A stretch of DNA of 64,000 nt from Phycisphaerales bacterium (lineage in GTDB: Bacteria; Planctomycetota; Phycisphaerae; Phycisphaerales; UBA1924), in NCBI GenBank assembly GCA_019744815.1, contig JAIEUA010000013.1, positions 62,001 to 126,000 of the forward strand. Direction: 5' to 3'. Both the position numbers and the translations under genes were made by a program. The notes beneath the pieces are model-generated. The model was not told the DNA's origin. It made no database searches and was given only the letters and a program-made list of their open reading frames with translations. Shown in pieces: positions 10,665-56,466 of this stretch (position 1 is its first letter; the number at the start of each line of letters is the position of its first letter).

Positions 10665-11480
10665 ATGCTGAGCCTGGTTGTGATGATGGGTCTTCACGTG
10701 TCGCTCGCGAGCGAGCCCGCTGCGTTGGCGTCCCCCGAAGCGAGCCGGGGCGTCCCCGCCCCGGCGCAGGTCGCGGTCGAACCCGCTCCGACCCCGGCGA
10801 CGCAAGCGAAGACAGACGCCACGCCCGCTGCCGCCCCCGCGGCTGCAGCGCCCGCCGCCAAGCCTGACCCCGCGAAGACCGAGGCCAAACCGGAAGCCAA
10901 GCCGGAAGCCAAACCCGACGCCAAGACCGAAGAAGCCAAGAAGCCCGCCGCCAACCCGCCCGCGACGCTCGCCGAGCTGAAAGAGCAGTACCCGACCATC
11001 AAGGCGACCCAGAAGGACGACGGCACGTTCGTCATCGACGAGAAGTTCGCCGTCACGGGCAAGGGGACGAAGGACAACCCCTACGTCGTGACCTGGGAGC
11101 ACCTGGTCTCGGTGTCGGAGCTTTACGACCCCAAGCGCGGCCAGAAGAAGCTGCCCGACCGCGTCATGTTCCTCGACGGCGCGTACGTCACCATCACCGG
11201 TTACGTCGCGTTCCCGCTGTACGTCGCGGAGCCGAAGGAACTGCTCTGCATGCTGAACCAGTGGGACGGCTGCTGCATCGGCGTGCCGCCGACGCCGTAC
11301 GACGCGATCGAGGTGAAGCTGAAGGAATCGGCGACCAAAGAGCAGCGCATGACGACCTTCGGGACGGTGAGCGGCAAGATGTTCGTGAAGCCGTATCTGG
11401 TGGGCGACTGGCTGGTGGGGCTGTACCTGATGGAAGAGGCGAGCATGGGCAAGCCGAAGCCGTCGAACGCGGGGACGTGA
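10665..11480 (+). CDS. DUF3299-type exported protein with Ala/Pro/Lys linker
   Basis: The C-terminal domain (about residues 130-262) has the DUF3299 hallmark: ITGYVAFPLYVAEPKELLCM, then a CC pair in NQWDGCCIGVPPTPYDAI. The N-terminus has a signal-like stretch (MLSLVVMMGLHVSLASEP). Between them is a low-complexity linker rich in Ala/Pro with KPEAKPEAKPDAK repeats. A copy of the REP-A palindrome lies inside the coding sequence at residues 26-34. It is placed 119 bases after the His-rich ABC permease. The function of DUF3299 is not settled; similar trios occur in zinc-regulated clusters of other bacteria (from memory). Confidence 0.8.
   Translation: MLSLVVMMGLHVSLASEPAALASPEASRGVPAPAQVAVEPAPTPATQAKTDATPAAAPAAAAPAAKPDPAKTEAKPEAKPEAKPDAKTEEAKKPAANPPATLAELKEQYPTIKATQKDDGTFVIDEKFAVTGKGTKDNPYVVTWEHLVSVSELYDPKRGQKKLPDRVMFLDGAYVTITGYVAFPLYVAEPKELLCMLNQWDGCCIGVPPTPYDAIEVKLKESATKEQRMTTFGTVSGKMFVKPYLVGDWLVGLYLMEEASMGKPKPSNAGT
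10740..10767 (+). repeat. REP-A palindrome inside a coding sequence
   Basis: 28 bases identical at 27 positions to the hairpins bracketing the RAYT gene at 13397. It has the same GCCGGGGCG stem, with loop TCCC instead of TCCT. It is read in frame as part of the DUF3299 protein N-terminal linker. Confidence 0.85.
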
Positions 11481-12651: not shown

Positions 12652-13314
<663 letters not shown>

Positions 13315-13355
13315 TGCTGCAGGCTTCATTTGTGGTTTGAGCGAGGGTACGAAGA

Positions 13356-13383
13356 GCGAGCCGGGGCGTCCTCGCCCCGGCGC
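13356..13383 (+). repeat. REP-A hairpin, left copy of the RAYT module
   Basis: A perfect 9-bp stem (GCCGGGGCG) with loop TCCT, inside a 28-base unit. The same 28 bases occur in inverted orientation at 13900-13927, bracketing the transposase gene. Confidence 0.93.
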
Positions 13384-13396
13384 CGAGGCCACCCGA

Positions 13397-14008
13397 GTGC
13401 CCCACACCAACTGGCACATCACCTTCGGCACCTACGGAACTCGTCTCCACGGTGAGGAACGCCCGACCGTGAATCGACGCCAGAATGAGGTGGGCCAGGC
13501 GTTTGTCGAACCCAACGAGCGCTGGGTCGCGGAGGAGCGGACGCTCATGAAGCGGAGCCCGGTCTGGTTTTCGCACGAGCAACGTGTTTTCGTCGAGGAA
13601 TCAGTGCCCGCGCTTTGTTTGAGAGGCGGTTGGGTACACAAAGTCTGTGCCGCCGCGGCGAACCATGTGCACGTGGTTCTCGCTGCTGAGGAAACGATCC
13701 ACGGCAAACAAGTCCGCTCACTGCTCAAGCGATGGCTGGGTCAGGCCCTCAGTTCTCGATGGTCGCGTCGGGCGGGGTCCGACGGTTCGGTGTGGTGGGC
13801 AGAAGGGGGATCGAACATCGCACTCAGCGATCGCCGGTACTACGAGAAGGCGTGTCTGTATGTTTCCAGACAGAGCACCTTCGAGCTTGATCGGCTTTCG
13901 CGCCGGGGCGAGGACGCCCCGGCTCGCTTTCGAGGGGCCGTTTCGCCAAACGCTGGACTTGACGCTCGAATCGACATCGACGACCAAAGAATCGGAGCTA
14001 CTTCGTGA
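13397..14008 (+). CDS. REP-associated tyrosine transposase (RAYT, Y1/HUH family)
   Basis: Single-strand transposase-like protein of the IS200-related Y1 family. It starts MPHTNWHITFGTYGTRLHG and carries the HUH metal motif as NHVHVVL. A candidate nucleophile tyrosine is in RYYEKACLYVSRQ near the C-terminus. It is 203 residues. I chose GTG 13397, preceded by GAGG; upstream codons belong to the hairpin. The gene is bracketed by inverted 28-base hairpins, the right one overlapping its last codons. Its stop overlaps the GTG of the dipeptidase gene (GTGA). RAYTs are thought to mobilise REP hairpins; activity here is inferred. Confidence 0.85.
   Translation: MPHTNWHITFGTYGTRLHGEERPTVNRRQNEVGQAFVEPNERWVAEERTLMKRSPVWFSHEQRVFVEESVPALCLRGGWVHKVCAAAANHVHVVLAAEETIHGKQVRSLLKRWLGQALSSRWSRRAGSDGSVWWAEGGSNIALSDRRYYEKACLYVSRQSTFELDRLSRRGEDAPARFRGAVSPNAGLDARIDIDDQRIGATS
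13900..13927 (-). repeat. REP-A hairpin, right copy, inverted
   Basis: Exact reverse complement of bases 13356-13383. It lies in the 3' end of the RAYT coding sequence, encoding SRRGEDAPAR. Confidence 0.93.
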
Positions 14009-15141
14009 CCTTCTTCGACTCCCATCTCGATCTCGCGTACCTGGCGGTCAATGGCCGCGACATGATGCACGCCGATCCGCTGGCTTCGGGCGGGCCGGAT
14101 CAGCCGGGGTGTATCACGCTGCCTTCGCTTCGAGAAGGAAACGTGCGCTTTGCCCTTGGCACGATCTTCACCGAGGTCGGGGGCAAGGGGCCCGAGTCGT
14201 ATCCGCCCGGGGATTCGGCCGAGGCGATCGAGCGGGCGTTTGCGGTGGGGCGGGCGCAGCTCGAGGTCTACCGCACCTGGCGTGACCGCGGCCTGATCGC
14301 GATGGACCTGCGGGAATCGCTGCGGGTGGAGCCGGGGACGGGCCGCGTGCGGGGCGGGATGGGCGTGGCGGAAGTCGTGCCGCCGTCGGTGCGGGAGCGG
14401 ATCGACAAGGCGACCGGGCCGCGGCAGCCGGCACTCCGCATCGGCGTGCTGATCGAAGGCGCGGACGTGATCAAGTCCCCGTCGCAGCTCGAATGGTGGG
14501 CCTCGCAGGGCGTCGTCGCGATCGGCCTGTGCTGGGCCAAGGACTCGCGTTACGCGACCGGCAACGCGACCGACCCGGCGACCAATCGCGTCGGGCTGAC
14601 GCCGGCCGGGCGTGAACTGCTCAAGGAGATGGACCGTCTGGGTGTGGTGCCGGACCTGGCCCACTTGTCGGATCGGGCGTGCGACGAATTGCTCGAGGCG
14701 ACCGGCAAGCCGGTGATCGCGTCGCACTCCAATTGCCGTGCGATCGTGGCGAGCGAGCCGCAGGTGGCGTCGCCGACGGCCCCGAACCTCCAGCGTCATC
14801 TCCGCGACGAGACGATCCTCGAGATCGCCCGGCGGGGCGGGGTGATCGGGATCAACCTGCTCAGCCAGTTCATCTTGCGGGGCGGCCGTCGTGATCGGCG
14901 GGCGACGGTGGACGAGACGATCGCCCACATCGAGCGCCTCTGCGAGCTGACCAACTCGCGCCGCCACGTGGGCCTGGGCAGCGACGCCGACGGCGGGATC
15001 ACCCGCGAGCGGCTGCCGCTGGGGATTGACCTGCCGCGCGACTACACGCGGCTGCTCGACAGTCTGGCTCGCCGCGGCTGGAGCGAGGACGAGGTGCGGG
15101 GCTTCGCCAGCGAGAACTGGTGCCGCTTCTGGGGCGGGTGA
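14005..15141 (+). CDS. Membrane dipeptidase-like metallopeptidase (M19 family)
   Basis: Zinc dipeptidase of the renal dipeptidase family, likely hydrolysing dipeptides. Metal-site blocks are visible: FDSHLDLAYL (HxD) at the N-terminus, VLIEGAD (bridging Glu), VPDLAHLSDRACDELLE, VIASHSNCRAI, and HVGLGSDADGG near the C-terminus. It has 378 residues, within the family range, and no signal peptide, so a cytoplasmic location is likely. GTG 14005 has GGAG 8 bases upstream. It overlaps the RAYT stop by 4 bases, so the RAYT module inserted, or was retained, very close to its translation start. Confidence 0.88.
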   Translation: MTFFDSHLDLAYLAVNGRDMMHADPLASGGPDQPGCITLPSLREGNVRFALGTIFTEVGGKGPESYPPGDSAEAIERAFAVGRAQLEVYRTWRDRGLIAMDLRESLRVEPGTGRVRGGMGVAEVVPPSVRERIDKATGPRQPALRIGVLIEGADVIKSPSQLEWWASQGVVAIGLCWAKDSRYATGNATDPATNRVGLTPAGRELLKEMDRLGVVPDLAHLSDRACDELLEATGKPVIASHSNCRAIVASEPQVASPTAPNLQRHLRDETILEIARRGGVIGINLLSQFILRGGRRDRRATVDETIAHIERLCELTNSRRHVGLGSDADGGITRERLPLGIDLPRDYTRLLDSLARRGWSEDEVRGFASENWCRFWGG

Positions 15142-15549
15142 GCGGGTTCGGCACTTCGCATCTGTGCGCCAGCTGCTCAGCCTCCCGACCAAGGGGCGGG
15201 CGGATATCCGCGTGACCGTGAGCGGCCGGGGCGTCTGGGCCCCGGGTTCCAGTCCAACTTGCACGGCAGGGACTGTTACCGGTGAGGGCTCGCGCCTCCC
15301 GGGCCCGCCGACACCGAACGCCATCCGGACTTCCCAGATCGCTGCAAAACAAGGCTGTTTTGCGGCTTATTCCGTCTGTGACGCCCCGCCCGGTCGGGCA
15401 AAAACGGCGGCCTTTGACGAAAAGAGCGGGTTTTCTTTGAAGTTGGTTGGCAACGCGCAAATCCGGAGGCATGTTTGACACGGCAACCGCGAGCTGTTCG
15501 TGGAAGCCAGTTGTTGTCTTCCAAACGTGACTTGTGAGGAGACTTGAAG
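15142..15549. other. Intergenic region before the PEP-CTERM-like trio
   Basis: About 400 bases holding a degenerate REP-like hairpin at 15226-15245. A TTGACA at 15475-15480 has no convincing -10 partner. AGGAG lies 8 bases before ATG 15550. No gene was seen. Confidence 0.5.
15226..15245. repeat. Degenerate REP-like hairpin
   Basis: CCGGGGC and GCCCCGG arms of 7 bp enclose a 6-base loop. The sequence resembles the REP-A unit but has diverged in loop and flanks. Confidence 0.5.
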
Positions 15550-16224
15550 ATGAAGAGCATGATTGCTGCTGTTGTTGGTATCGCTGGTCTCGCGGCTGCT
15601 GCGAACGCTGCCTGGGGCCTCAAGTTTGAAGTGTTCGATAACGTCAGCGCCTCCTGGAAGTCGTCGGTCAACGCCAACCCGGGCGATATCGTCAAGATCC
15701 GCTTCGGCGCTTACTTCGATGTCGGCACCAAGGTCACCACCGGTGACGGCACTGGCAACGCGGTCGCCCTCAACCGCTTCACCGGCTCGAACCAGATCAC
15801 CAATCTGGGCGCCGGCGACGTGATCCAGAACCTCGTCCGCACCTCGTCGAGCGGCAACCCCGCCCTCACGCAGGTCGCTGGCAACACGATCGGCACGACC
15901 GCGGTCACCAGCTTCGGCGGCCAGCTCCTGCTGAACCTCCCCGCCGCTGCCGAGACCTACTACCAGATCTTCACCGGCGAAGTGAAGGTTGTCTCGGGCA
16001 CCGTCCGCTCGATGGTCTTCCAGAACAAGACCTTCGGCTCGGGCAACACCAAGGGCCTGACCTTCTACCACGACGCGTCGCCCTCCAACAAGCAGTCGGC
16101 CGCCCCGGACGACACCGCTGGCCGTTTCGACCTGACCGCCTCGATCAACGTCGTCCCGACCCCGGCTTCGATGGCCCTCATCGGCCTCGGCGGTCTGGTC
16201 GCCGCCCGCCGCCGTCGCGCCTAA
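15550..16224 (+). CDS. Exported PEP-CTERM-like protein, paralog 1
   Basis: First of three tandem paralogs. It has a signal peptide (MKSMIAAVVGIAGLAAAANA), a beta-rich body of about 175 residues, and a C-terminal sorting-like tail VPTPASMALIGLGGLVAARR ending in an Arg cluster. This tail has the PEP-CTERM layout (Pro-x-Pro-Ala, hydrophobic helix, Arg run) with TPA in place of EPA, and implies export and processing by an exosortase-like enzyme not found in this window. Shared body motifs are AVALNRFTGSNQITN and SFGGQLLLNLP. Start ATG 15550 follows AGGAG. A strong terminator follows. The function is unknown; a surface or matrix role is inference. Confidence 0.85.
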   Translation: MKSMIAAVVGIAGLAAAANAAWGLKFEVFDNVSASWKSSVNANPGDIVKIRFGAYFDVGTKVTTGDGTGNAVALNRFTGSNQITNLGAGDVIQNLVRTSSSGNPALTQVAGNTIGTTAVTSFGGQLLLNLPAAAETYYQIFTGEVKVVSGTVRSMVFQNKTFGSGNTKGLTFYHDASPSNKQSAAPDDTAGRFDLTASINVVPTPASMALIGLGGLVAARRRRA

Positions 16225-16292
16225 GTGACGCCGGCCTCGCTGAAAACCCTGCGGCGAAAGCCGTAACGCTCAGCAACCACATGTATTCATCG

Positions 16293-16329
16293 TCCGCCCC
16301 GATCTGCCGATCGGGGCGGATTCGTTTTT
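16293..16329 (+). terminator. Rho-independent terminator after PEP-CTERM-like paralog 1
   Basis: 12-bp stem TCCGCCCCGATC with a 4-base loop and perfect complement, followed by TTCGTTTTT. Confidence 0.92.
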
Positions 16330-16333
16330 GGAG

Positions 16334-16381
16334 CAGTGGGGCAGTGGGGCAGTGGGGCAGTGGGGCAGTGGGGCAGTGGGG
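16334..16381 (+). repeat. Six tandem copies of CAGTGGGG
   Basis: Perfect 8-base minisatellite directly after the terminator T-tract. Related G-rich runs occur at 32996-33038 and inside the RluD-type gene at 55387-55434. Confidence 0.95.
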
Positions 16382-16598
16382 CACGCAAAAACGCGTGTTC
16401 CAGGCGGCAAAGACCGAGTAAACCACCGTACAGGATGCGATTTCCCGGACTCGCAACCTCACAGACGGGATTTTTTGTCAAAAAACGGTCAAACCGCGCA
16501 GAAAGGTCTTGAAGACCCCCGGTAGTGTCGTGTATCTTTCACTGGTCAGGAACGAACCGCCCGTTCCGTGGGATTTTTTACTAGAGGAGAAGAGAGTT

Positions 16599-17360
16599 AT
16601 GAAGAATGTTGTTCTCGCCGTCACGGCTATCGCCGGGATCGCTGCCTCCGCCAACGCGGCTTGGGGCTACAAGTATCAGGTTTCCACCGACGGTGGCGCG
16701 ACCTGGTCCAGCAACGCCGTGGTGAACGTCACCGGCGGCGCTGCCACCGTGAACTTCCGCGTCGTCGCGTTCGCTGACGCTGGCACCCTGTCCTCGCTGG
16801 CCCTTCCGCCCGGCGCTGACGGCTCCAGCACCAATCAGGTCGTTGCCTTCGCCCGTTACACCGGCTCCGAGAAGTTCACGAACTTCGGCGCTGCTGCCAA
16901 CGGCGACATGCTGAACGCCGGCATGACCCGCGGCGAGCTCAGCTCGCAGGGCGCCACCTACCTCAGCAGCTCGCTCTCGGGCGGCTCGCTGATCGTCGGC
17001 GGCACCACCGCGACCTCGTTCGCCTCGCAGCTCCTGCTCGCCGGCCCCCTCTCGGCCTACACCCCCTCCTCGGGCGGCACCCCGGACCTCGAGTGGGTCA
17101 TCCGCGCTGGTTCGATCAAGGTCGGCAACAGCACTGTTGGCGCCCAGAACCGCATCATCACCTTCACCAACAACAACCGCACCGGCGGCGGCACCTGGTA
17201 CCGTGACGCTCTCGTCAACGGCGTGAACGACGTGAACGCTGGCGCTCCGGTCGGCACCCCCATCAACATCGACGGCACCATCACCGTCGTCCCGACCACG
17301 GGCTCGCTCGCCCTCGTCGGCCTCGGCGGCCTCGTCGCTGCCCGTCGTCGTCGCGCCTAA
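16599..17360 (+). CDS. Exported PEP-CTERM-like protein, paralog 2
   Basis: Second tandem paralog, 253 residues. Signal peptide MKNVVLAVTAIAGIAASANA. The body repeats the family motifs: YQVSTDGGATWSS, QVVAFARYTGSEKFTNFG and SFASQLLLAGP. The C-terminal tail VPTTGSLALVGLGGLVAARR keeps the helix and Arg run but has lost the second Pro and the Ala of the sorting motif. ATG 16599 follows an AGAGGAGAAGAG purine-rich site. The 374 bases upstream hold the previous terminator and the CAGTGGGG minisatellite. A terminator follows. Function unknown. Confidence 0.85.
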   Translation: MKNVVLAVTAIAGIAASANAAWGYKYQVSTDGGATWSSNAVVNVTGGAATVNFRVVAFADAGTLSSLALPPGADGSSTNQVVAFARYTGSEKFTNFGAAANGDMLNAGMTRGELSSQGATYLSSSLSGGSLIVGGTTATSFASQLLLAGPLSAYTPSSGGTPDLEWVIRAGSIKVGNSTVGAQNRIITFTNNNRTGGGTWYRDALVNGVNDVNAGAPVGTPINIDGTITVVPTTGSLALVGLGGLVAARRRRA

Positions 17361-17408
17361 TCGCGTGATGACTCGGTGAGAGATCCTCAGAATCTCACGT
17401 GAACCACT

Positions 17409-17442
17409 CCGCACTCATCGAAAGATGAGTGCGGTTCTTTTT
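17409..17442 (+). terminator. Rho-independent terminator after PEP-CTERM-like paralog 2
   Basis: Perfect 11-bp stem CCGCACTCATC with GAAA tetraloop, then TTCTTTTT. Confidence 0.95.
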
Positions 17443-18034
17443 GATGACCTCATTTCCGTTCTTTCTCGCGATATGAAGAAATCATCAGGGCGTGTTCGGT
17501 CACCGGCGCTGCACAGATGATGAGATGACTTCCCAGTTTTTCGGGATGGCGACCGCCTTCCGATTCGATCCGGCCCGTGTCCTGGCCGCGTGCACTCGCG
17601 CAACGGCAGAACGGAATGGGACGGCACGCCCTGTGTGTGGATCGTCTCGCACGGGTGATCTTCAGGCCGCGGATCGGGCGGCACGCGGACAACAAGCGTG
17701 AAAAGGGCTCGGTTCTTAGTGTGAAAACACGCGTATCGATCAGCACGACGCGTGCGCGATCGGTACACTTGGGAACCTCTGGCGGCGTTGTCCCGGCCGT
17801 TGGAGGCTCGATCCGTGCCAGAATCGTGTTCGTTCAAGGACAACTTCGTGTTATTTCCGAAGTTTGTGCCGAGACTCGAAACCGAGGGGCATCTTGATCG
17901 GAAAGAAGTGTGCCGGCAGGGTTGTGGCGTTTCCGCCGCCATGGCCCGCTCGCTAGATCTGTTGGGTTCGCTTGGAGCGATCACGGCAGGGATGGAGAGG
18001 CCGGCGTTGTTCGTGGGAAAGTAGGAGAAGAGAG
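17443..18034. other. 590-base region with no convincing gene
   Basis: Open frames here on both strands have unnatural composition and no matching ribosome-binding sites. It separates paralogs 2 and 3 and must hold the promoter of paralog 3. The only clear signal is AGGAG just before ATG 18035. Confidence 0.45.
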
Positions 18035-18712
18035 ATGAAGAATGGTTTTGTTTTGGCGATCGCCGTCGCCGGCCTTGCCGCGTCGGCTCAAGCCGCTTCG
18101 TACGGCCTGCTGTTTGAAGTCAGCGGCGACGGCGGCGCGAACTGGACGCAGAATCTGAATGTCGACGTCACCAGCGGCGCCGCGACCGTGAAGTTCCGCA
18201 TCAGCGCGTACTTCCAGGACGGCGTCACCGTCAACGGCAACCAGGCTGTGGCGTTCAACCGCTTCACCGGTTCGAACATCATCACCAACTGGGGCAGCGG
18301 CTTCGCCGGCGATCAGCTCCAGACCTACACCCGTGACGTGTCCAGCGGCAACGCCGCGATTCTCAGCACGACGCAGACCGCCGCCGGGCGCCTGCTCGGC
18401 AACACGACCGCGCTGTCGTTTGCCAGCCAGCTGCTGCTGAACCTGCCCTCGAGCCCCGTCTACACGACCCAGATCCTCTCGGGTCAGATCAAGATCGGCA
18501 ACACCGCCCCCGGCGCGTTTGTCCGCACGATCGAGCTGAAGAACAACAGCCAGATCTCGCTGAACTTCTACGGCGCCGGCTCGACCACCGCGGGCCCCGC
18601 CCTCGGCGACCTGGTGAATTCCAACGCCGTCATCAACGTGATCCCGGCTCCCGCCTCGCTCGCCCTCGTTGGCCTCGGCGGCCTCGTCGCCGCTCGCCGT
18701 CGTCGGGCCTAA
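18035..18712 (+). CDS. Exported PEP-CTERM-like protein, paralog 3
   Basis: Third paralog, 225 residues. Signal peptide MKNGFVLAIAVAGLAASAQA. Body motifs match paralogs 1 and 2: LLFEVSGDGGANWTQN, NQAVAFNRFTGSNIITNWG and SFASQLLLNLP. The tail IPAPASLALVGLGGLVAARR is the fullest version of the sorting motif of the three. ATG 18035 has AGGAG upstream. It is followed by a terminator and then a palindrome cluster. Each paralog has its own terminator, so the three are separate transcription units produced by tandem duplication. Confidence 0.85.
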   Translation: MKNGFVLAIAVAGLAASAQAASYGLLFEVSGDGGANWTQNLNVDVTSGAATVKFRISAYFQDGVTVNGNQAVAFNRFTGSNIITNWGSGFAGDQLQTYTRDVSSGNAAILSTTQTAAGRLLGNTTALSFASQLLLNLPSSPVYTTQILSGQIKIGNTAPGAFVRTIELKNNSQISLNFYGAGSTTAGPALGDLVNSNAVINVIPAPASLALVGLGGLVAARRRRA

Positions 18713-55896: not shown

Positions 55897-55907
55897 CGCG
55901 TCGCGCT

Positions 55908-55932
55908 AGAGCCTCTCGCGTAAGCGAGAGGT
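55908..55932 (+). repeat. REP-D hairpin, left copy of second RAYT module
   Basis: 25-base unit around a CCTCTCGC stem, 11 bases after the RluD-type stop codon. Exact inverted copy at 56433-56457. Confidence 0.94.
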
Positions 55933-55943
55933 CGCTGCCGTTC

Positions 55944-56411
55944 TCAATGTGCCATCGTGTAATTCACCGCTCCACGAACCGCTTCGTCAAAGAACAATGA
56001 TCTGGTGCTGGACTGATTCGTCCAGAACTTCGTGCGACCGACGTGCCGTCCGCCCGCTCGAAGCGCCCTCGTCGCCCACGATTTCAGTATGGACGCAACA
56101 TGCTCTGGGCTGCTTTCCGTCGAATTGAGCACGATGTGCACATGATTCGTTCGAACGGCCAATGCCAGAACGCTCCACTTGCGGATCTCGCAAGTCGTGC
56201 GGATGGCTTCCGCGACGGTCTCGCGGTCGACGTCGTCGAGCGTCATGGTCGGTTCGCTCTGGCGCTCCAGCACGCGCGATCGGCGGCCGCGATCCGGTTC
56301 TGCGTAACTCGTGCCGTATTGGTTGTGTCGATCGTCCACCGAGCCGCGGTCGTCGCCGTGGAGCCACGAGCCATACGTCGTCCACGTGATGAAGTAGGCG
56401 ATCGGAGGCAT
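55944..56411 (-). CDS. REP-associated tyrosine transposase (RAYT), second type
   Basis: 155 residues. Y1-family start MPPIAYFITWTTYGSWLHGD; the HUH motif is NHVHIVL within ALAVRTNHVHIVLNSTE. The candidate nucleophile tyrosine is in VRGAVNYTMAH. It is shorter than and clearly different from the RAYT at 13397 (different spacing and flanks), so it represents a separate subfamily. It sits between two inverted 25-base hairpins in the convergent gap of the RluD-type gene and serS. Start ATG 56411 has GGAG about 13 bases away, weak. It may be active; the sequence looks intact. Confidence 0.88.
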   Translation of the reverse strand: MPPIAYFITWTTYGSWLHGDDRGSVDDRHNQYGTSYAEPDRGRRSRVLERQSEPTMTLDDVDRETVAEAIRTTCEIRKWSVLALAVRTNHVHIVLNSTESSPEHVASILKSWATRALRAGGRHVGRTKFWTNQSSTRSLFFDEAVRGAVNYTMAH

Positions 56412-56432
56412 GCGGGGATGGGAGCGAAAGTG

Positions 56433-56457
56433 ACCTCTCGCTTACGCGAGAGGCTCT
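56433..56457 (-). repeat. REP-D hairpin, right copy, inverted
   Basis: Exact reverse complement of 55908-55932. It lies 9 bases past the serS stop. Confidence 0.94.
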
Positions 56458-56466
56458 ATCGGAAAC

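Follow-up and report, generated by a model that had tools for sequence, protein, structure and literature searches.

A probable REPtron in a Phycisphaerales genome: a single-copy HUH/Y1 gene between scoB and a peptidase M19 gene, with about 100 cognate REPs

A Y1/HUH gene that stands between two inverted hairpins may be a unit that moves by its hairpin ends, or a resident gene with a repeat family around it. Such a locus lies in the window, a 64-kb stretch (64,000 nucleotides) of Phycisphaerales DNA, and we asked which of the two it is and how long the gene has been there. As originally predicted, two 28-mers of the sequence GCGAGCCGGGGCGTCCTCGCCCCGGCGC surround the gene, identical to each other and inverted, each folding, at -14.5 kcal/mol (z -3.9), into a stem of 9 bp and a loop of 4 nt. 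The right one overlaps the 3' coding end of the gene; the RAYT frame runs on past it to 14008 (Table 1). When up to 3 mismatches were allowed, the 24-mer core was matched 3 times in the window and in none of 100 shuffles. A pattern with a free loop was less telling: it matched 7 times, where the shuffles averaged 2.0 and 1 of 100 came as high. The third copy (core 10742-10765) is the near-identical hairpin noted 2.6 kb away in another gene. It is one base off the flanking REPs, and the ORF around it matches DUF3299 only marginally (22.1 bits against a cut-off of 22). At least one REP copy thus lies in a coding frame. A degenerate hairpin had also been proposed at about 15226. The palindrome found there bears only a weak resemblance to the REPs, has AGCG at the foot position and is not among the 100 matches of the genome search described below.

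Table 1. Features of the locus and related loci (window coordinates unless loci are named).
Feature	Position	Strand	Remarks
Third REP, loop TCCC	10740..10765	+	in ORF 10665-11480; same place in G005
scoB-like 3-oxoacid CoA-transferase subunit B	12652..13314	+	TIGR02428, 331.7 bits; upstream neighbour
Spacer from scoB stop to left REP, 41 nt	13315..13355		without counterpart in 7 congeners
Left REP	13356..13383	+	GCGA foot 13356-13359, 22-nt hairpin 13360-13381, GC
RAYT (HUH/Y1) CDS, 203 aa	13397..14008	+	likely GTG start at 13397
Right REP	13900..13927	-	copy of left REP, inverted; within 3' coding end of RAYT frame
Right REP to M19 start, 77-nt stretch	13928..14004		without counterpart in 7 congeners
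Peptidase M19 (membrane dipeptidase)	14005..15141	+	start codon overlaps RAYT stop (GTGA)
Weak palindrome, no GCGA foot	15225..15246	+	not counted as REP
Valyl-tRNA synthetase HUH loci	L033, L038, L055, L262, L263, L264, L267-L271, L273-L276		15 of 201 genomes, several families

The mechanically called ORF of the RAYT opens at TTG 13337 (frame 13337-14008). Translation probably starts at GTG 13397, judging by a GAGG upstream and by a homologue (L028) that begins with MPTTTWHITF. The protein has His90 and His92 (HVH), Tyr155 and Gln159; the right REP supplies the codons for residues 168-177 or so, after which the protein has 26 more. His90, His92 and Tyr155 are invariant in an alignment of 10 sequences (A1) and in another of 11 sequences (A2). 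Gln159 is nearly invariant in A1 and invariant in A2, and the other nine A1 members are 36-51% identical to the window protein. The window protein had no match in Pfam or NCBIfam at E up to 1, PF01797 included, and was the exception in A1, as 9 of the 10 members matched Y1_Tnp at this threshold (best 2e-6). A PDB profile search ranked IS200-type transposases at the top, with a weak value of 0.029. The AlphaFold (AF2) model, made from 11 sequences, has a pLDDT of 80. Its best Foldseek matches were ISDra2/IS608-type, IS200-family transposases (E about 3e-5, TM about 0.5), and it also matched the REP-bound RAYT structure 4er8 (E 7e-3). The modelled fold is thus of the IS200/REP HUH type, and by this predicted fold and via its relatives the RAYT belongs to that family. 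TnpA of IS608 and ISDra2 (IS200/IS605) are its best structural matches, and the protein has Gln at Tyr+4, the position it has in IS608. The catalytic tyrosine of IS608 is Y127. The IS608 glutamine is named as Q131 (PMC6006769). The RAYT is a single copy in its own genome, where its next relatives are 34% and 30% identical. A second RAYT-like gene in the window (55903-56460, minus strand), 34% identical to the first, is bracketed by a different inverted hairpin family, CCTCTCGCGTAAGCGAGAGG.

The host genome (G000; 4.11 Mb, 18 contigs, about 92% complete) contains a large family of the hairpin. Counted genome-wide, as had been proposed, the hairpin with the given loop and up to 3 mismatches gave 100 matches against 3 for the reversed control; with a free loop there were 136 per strand against 63. 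We read 99 of the 100 sites (C7:278271, with 3 mismatches, was left out). Exact GCGA stands directly 5' of the hairpin at 97 of the 99, although the search pattern was the 22-nt hairpin only, with the foot left out; the exceptions are L092 (GCGG) and L141 (GTGA). The base outside the foot is A in 82 of 99 sites, and conservation is near nil further out and from about the third base past the hairpin. Neighbouring REPs within 600 bp form 29 pairs, all with one inverted polarity, feet outward, where random orientation would give this polarity with a chance of 1/4 per pair. One pair is that around the RAYT, one is 423 bp apart, and the other 27 are within 200 bp. By the description in PMC3116915, as excerpted, these 27 close inverted doublets are REPINs. 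The three that were folded pair end to end (z -7.8 to -10.5). Measured from foot to foot, the REPINs are 91-104 (18), 129-137 (6) or 162-174 (3) bp long. Their spacers share almost no sequence; only two matches reached 18 nt (30 nt at 77%, 21 nt at 81%), which gives no support to a recent amplification of whole REPINs. The complete REP-RAYT module of the original prediction is borne out by this large cognate family, by the foot and by the fold of the protein.

The three REPIN length classes are about 35 bp apart despite sequence-unrelated spacers (e.g. L098, L129, L085). Other dispersed short repeats flank REP sites L091, L104, L105 and L111, e.g. repeats containing GGTGCCATCAGTCC, a type with dozens of matches in G005, a genome of the same genus.

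We compared the module with known systems, using the excerpts of the cited papers that bear on it. Class 3 TnpA-Y1 proteins are HUH/Y1 proteins with flanking high-copy hairpins, a CnGA foot and a Y- - - -Q motif; they are reported mainly from Planctomycetes, Acidobacteria and Proteobacteria, are called rare, and experiments on their origin and behaviour have been called for (PMC6006769). Like these, the RAYT is an HUH/Y1 protein with high-copy flanking hairpins of xxGA foot, Gln after Tyr and planctomycete relatives, but the foot here is GCGA instead of CnGA and the spacing is Tyr-x3-Gln instead of the printed Y- - - -Q (PMC6006769). The residues of the window protein are Y155-x3-Q159, and distant homologues show Y-x4-Q. 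Neither a conserved scoB location nor REPIN doublets are mentioned for class 3 in the excerpt of PMC6006769. The protein resembles class 3 TnpA-Y1, with a different foot. Like the RAYT/REPIN system of Pseudomonas fluorescens, the REPs here form inverted doublets with a variable spacer, and the GI spacing of 71 bp in that species compares with 61-74 bp in 18 of 27 doublets here; unlike in P. fluorescens, the spacers share almost no sequence, and the REP sequence is different (PMC3116915). As in the GTAG- and CGTC-tagged REP families, tagged palindromes flank RAYT genes and some REPs lie inside genes (PMC3733652). Those families occur in Planctomycetes too, and the excerpt of PMC3733652 does not mention a GCGA tag. 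The GT[AG]G foot of RAYT groups was not found at these REPs, their foot being GCGA. RAYTs are described as single-copy and vertically inherited (PMC8049555), which fits this gene; unlike IS608 and ISDra2, it is a single copy and is not bounded by its hairpins when compared with the empty site. A literature search on planctomycetes and RAYTs found only PMC3733652 and PMC6006769.

Close RAYT homologues (E below 1e-40) were found in 5 of the other 60 genomes searched, all of other genera, and in none of the seven congeners. Named Planctomycetota records gave 13 RAYT homologue loci, from Phycisphaerales and other Planctomycetota. Of the 9 A1 relatives, 7 (all but L027 and L031) are flanked by hairpins whose foot is GCGA or CCGA, as are 6 of 12 loci in a separate homologue set, and several relatives have a CCGA or CAGA foot. 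The hairpin sequence varies between genomes and the foot is largely constant, which fits co-evolving pairs of enzyme and repeat. At 5 of the 12 loci no hairpin of at least 8 bp was found within 300 nt, and this counts against a REPtron reading. Allowing up to 2 mismatches in all 61 genomes, we counted 91 hairpins in the host genome, 44 in G005, 11 in G036, 9 in G016 and at most 3 in each of the rest, with 0-1 in each of the six congeners other than G005. Among the four richest genomes, a close RAYT is present only in the host genome and G016; no RAYT match at 1e-5 was found in G005 or G036. Equal occurrence in relatives without the RAYT had been named beforehand as evidence against the module, and half of this came true: G005 (44 against 91) and G036 (11) have hairpins and lack the gene, but the six congeners have almost none. 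The G036 hairpins may belong to another system, as the feet of the 6 of 11 that were read are GTGA (3), GCGA (1), GTAA (1) and GTGG (1). At L065, L075 and L080 of G036, which is of another genus, near-identical hairpins with mostly GTGA feet stand in a genome that gave no match to the RAYT; a different guide may be at work there on the same stem.

The history of the site was judged from the same comparison. Each of the 7 congeners lacks the RAYT and has a near-seamless junction, with scoB and M19 overlapping or almost adjoining. The proposed comparison with related genomes did give empty sites. They first suggested a recent insertion of the RAYT, a view undone by the same gene order in other genera. 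The order scoB-RAYT-M19 recurs in G015 and G016, and the MAG SJ83 has scoB-RAYT, with no M19 in the stretch examined; in all three the orientation is that of the host and the RAYT has REPs on either side. The scoB-RAYT order thus occurs in 4 genomes, the host included. Because RAYT homologues stand directly downstream of scoB in G015, G016 and SJ83, the location looks old on sequence comparison. The third REP tells the same of the repeats: it occupies the same codon position of the orthologous G005 gene, with one change in the REP core there, and therefore predates the split and is not a recent arrival. The recent mobility suggested by the original prediction is supported on neither count. An insertion bounded by the REPs was also rejected, as the extra DNA extends 41 and 77 nt outside the REP feet at the RAYT site and also passes the foot, on one side or both, at three REPIN sites (L102, L129, L131).

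The reading that we prefer, and think probably correct, is a REPtron: a single-copy HUH/Y1 gene between scoB and M19 with two cognate REPs around it and about 100 REPs genome-wide, many as REPINs, the gene being mainly inherited in place and sometimes lost. Its chief competitor, to which we give a minor but real chance, holds that the RAYT and its REPs are young in the G000 lineage (or that of G000 and G005), the gene having been inserted between scoB and M19, a favoured target that was reached in other lineages too, and the REPs having then spread. The tight junction of the seven congeners could indeed be the ancestral state, and six of them have 0-1 REPs. The four scoB-locus genes came together in 0% of 200 bootstraps of the RAYT tree, and in other members of the clade neither scoB nor M19 was seen within the 0.3-2.5 kb examined on each side of the RAYT. 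The tree, however, has little resolution and is mostly unresolved, so that a single origin of the scoB-locus genes would stay compatible with it; the gene trees likewise leave the branching inside the genus without resolution. A young arrival sits badly with the arrangement behind scoB in G015, G016 and SJ83, where order and orientation are the same and the REPs likewise face inward, and with extra DNA whose ends are not REP-bounded. The host RAYT is 42-49% identical to the homologues in these three genomes, which is of the order of M19 (52% for G016; 40% for G015, over part of the protein) and lower than scoB (70-74%). Of 33 REP loci read in G005, 20 have an orthologous REP locus in the host, so that an enzyme already present in the common ancestor is the simplest assumption, as is its present place. 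We therefore lean clearly towards a loss of the RAYT in G005 over a gain in the host. Against this stands that G005 is about 93% complete, so that its RAYT could sit in a gap. No RAYT remnant was seen in G005; among the matches listed, those to the module DNA overlap REPs. Its three Y1_Tnp genes are all away from the scoB site.

Two further explanations touch the nature of the element. That it is an ordinary insertion sequence of IS200/IS605 type, with REP-like ends and moving as a unit, agrees with the HUH motif, the tyrosine, the glutamine four residues past it and the ISDra2/IS608-type transposases as best Foldseek matches. We consider it very improbable, since the gene has one genome copy with its next relatives only 34% and 30% identical, the repeats outnumber it 100 to 1, and comparison with the empty site puts its boundaries elsewhere than at the REPs. 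Still harder to credit is that the hairpins have nothing to do with the gene and serve as transcription terminators or as some other structural element: they are strong and GC-rich, but a 4-base foot, doublets of one polarity and identical copies around the gene would be unexpected of terminators, and one copy lies in coding sequence.

In the REPtron reading the action of the protein can be modelled on IS608/ISDra2 and TnpA-REP. TnpA-REP cuts single-stranded REP DNA beside the hairpin, and in one such system pairing of the guide tetranucleotide sets the cut dinucleotide (PMC8266576). Like TnpA-REP of E. coli, Stenotrophomonas and Marinomonas, the RAYT is predicted to have the 4er8 fold and its REPs have a 5' guide tetranucleotide, GTAG in those systems and GCGA here (PMC8266576). 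We infer that the RAYT binds, cleaves and copies the REPs: it would bind the hairpin as single-stranded DNA, read the 5' GCGA foot as a guide, cut beside the hairpin via Tyr155 and rejoin the ends, and REPINs would thereby be moved or copied at a low rate. Under the TnpA-REP pairing rule, GCGA would predict a cut at TC. After loss of the gene, as presumed for G005, the REPs would remain and decay.

The REP copies of the host and its sister G005 allow such decay to be measured. In 31 orthologous REPs from 22 locus pairs, the core is 95.5% identical and the flanks 86.0% (paired test, 1.6e-7). Over 711 core positions of these REPs, the host deviates from the consensus at 8 and G005 at 26 (p 0.003); the contrast is weaker without the one pair found from the side of the host genome (21 in G005 versus 8 in the host, p 0.024). 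Among all copies read, the core is perfect in 75 of 99 in the host and 28 of 47 in G005 (p 0.053; one G005 hairpin, C15:10509, was left out). Branch lengths of the neighbouring genes are alike in the host and G005 (M19, 0.026 and 0.029; scoB, 0.017 each). Most of the G005 loci came from a search with a stricter pattern (2 mismatches instead of 3), which should work against the contrast.

At least 3 REPINs (L102, L129, L131) are cleanly present in the host and absent in G005. On one side or both, their ends pass the feet by up to 43 nt, and gain therefore looks no different from loss. The joined-flank search for empty sites covered 23 sites (the best 40 of 214 candidates), was repeated for 14 of these sites (the best 40 of 75 candidates) and was hampered by other dispersed repeats. 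In G005 one REPIN has decayed (L137/L212) and one is reduced to a piece (L091/L200, the first pair of L091); at L135 other DNA is in its place; L094, L103 and the second pair of L091 matched on one side only, and the remaining sites of the 23 were uninformative. At L083/L154 the REPIN spacer is inverted between the two genomes, with the outer flanks collinear.

A bolder proposal, which we put forward only tentatively and think doubtful as a whole, is that the enzyme keeps the repeats uniform by turnover or conversion, that its loss in G005 let the REPs decay about 3 times faster, and that the gene occupies a preferred site behind scoB and can vanish from it almost without trace. If this is true, REPs would be a maintained, enzyme-dependent feature of the genome and not passive debris. 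How REPs spread and are kept is an open general question, and a sister pair with and apparently without the enzyme, at common REP sites, would give a direct measure of its effect on the repeats.

A homologous HUH domain was also observed within the reading frame of valyl-tRNA synthetase, at one conserved place between LSDQWY and WCISRQL. A search of 201 genomes of the order gave a match in 45, and in 15 of these the match lies in an open frame of at least 988 residues. Among 32 loci read, 13 (from 11 genomes) are flanked by the motifs; looser criteria brought in the other four genomes (L264, L267, L268, L276), and L267 is without the upstream motif and has HAH. All six such frames scanned with Pfam matched both class I tRNA synthetase and Y1_Tnp. 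A literature search on valyl-tRNA synthetase found no paper on such a domain, nor did a wider one among the matches listed. This finding is possibly more novel than the REPtron itself. The synthetase HUH domains often adjoin translated putative REP-like repeats (TSRDREGA, PLPHGRGS).

Elsewhere in the window, three adjacent similar proteins (15544-18712) end in LVGLGGLVAARRRRA or the like, and we take them to be PEP-CTERM-like. A short tandem array of GCAGTGGG units (16330-16384) lies downstream of the first of these genes.
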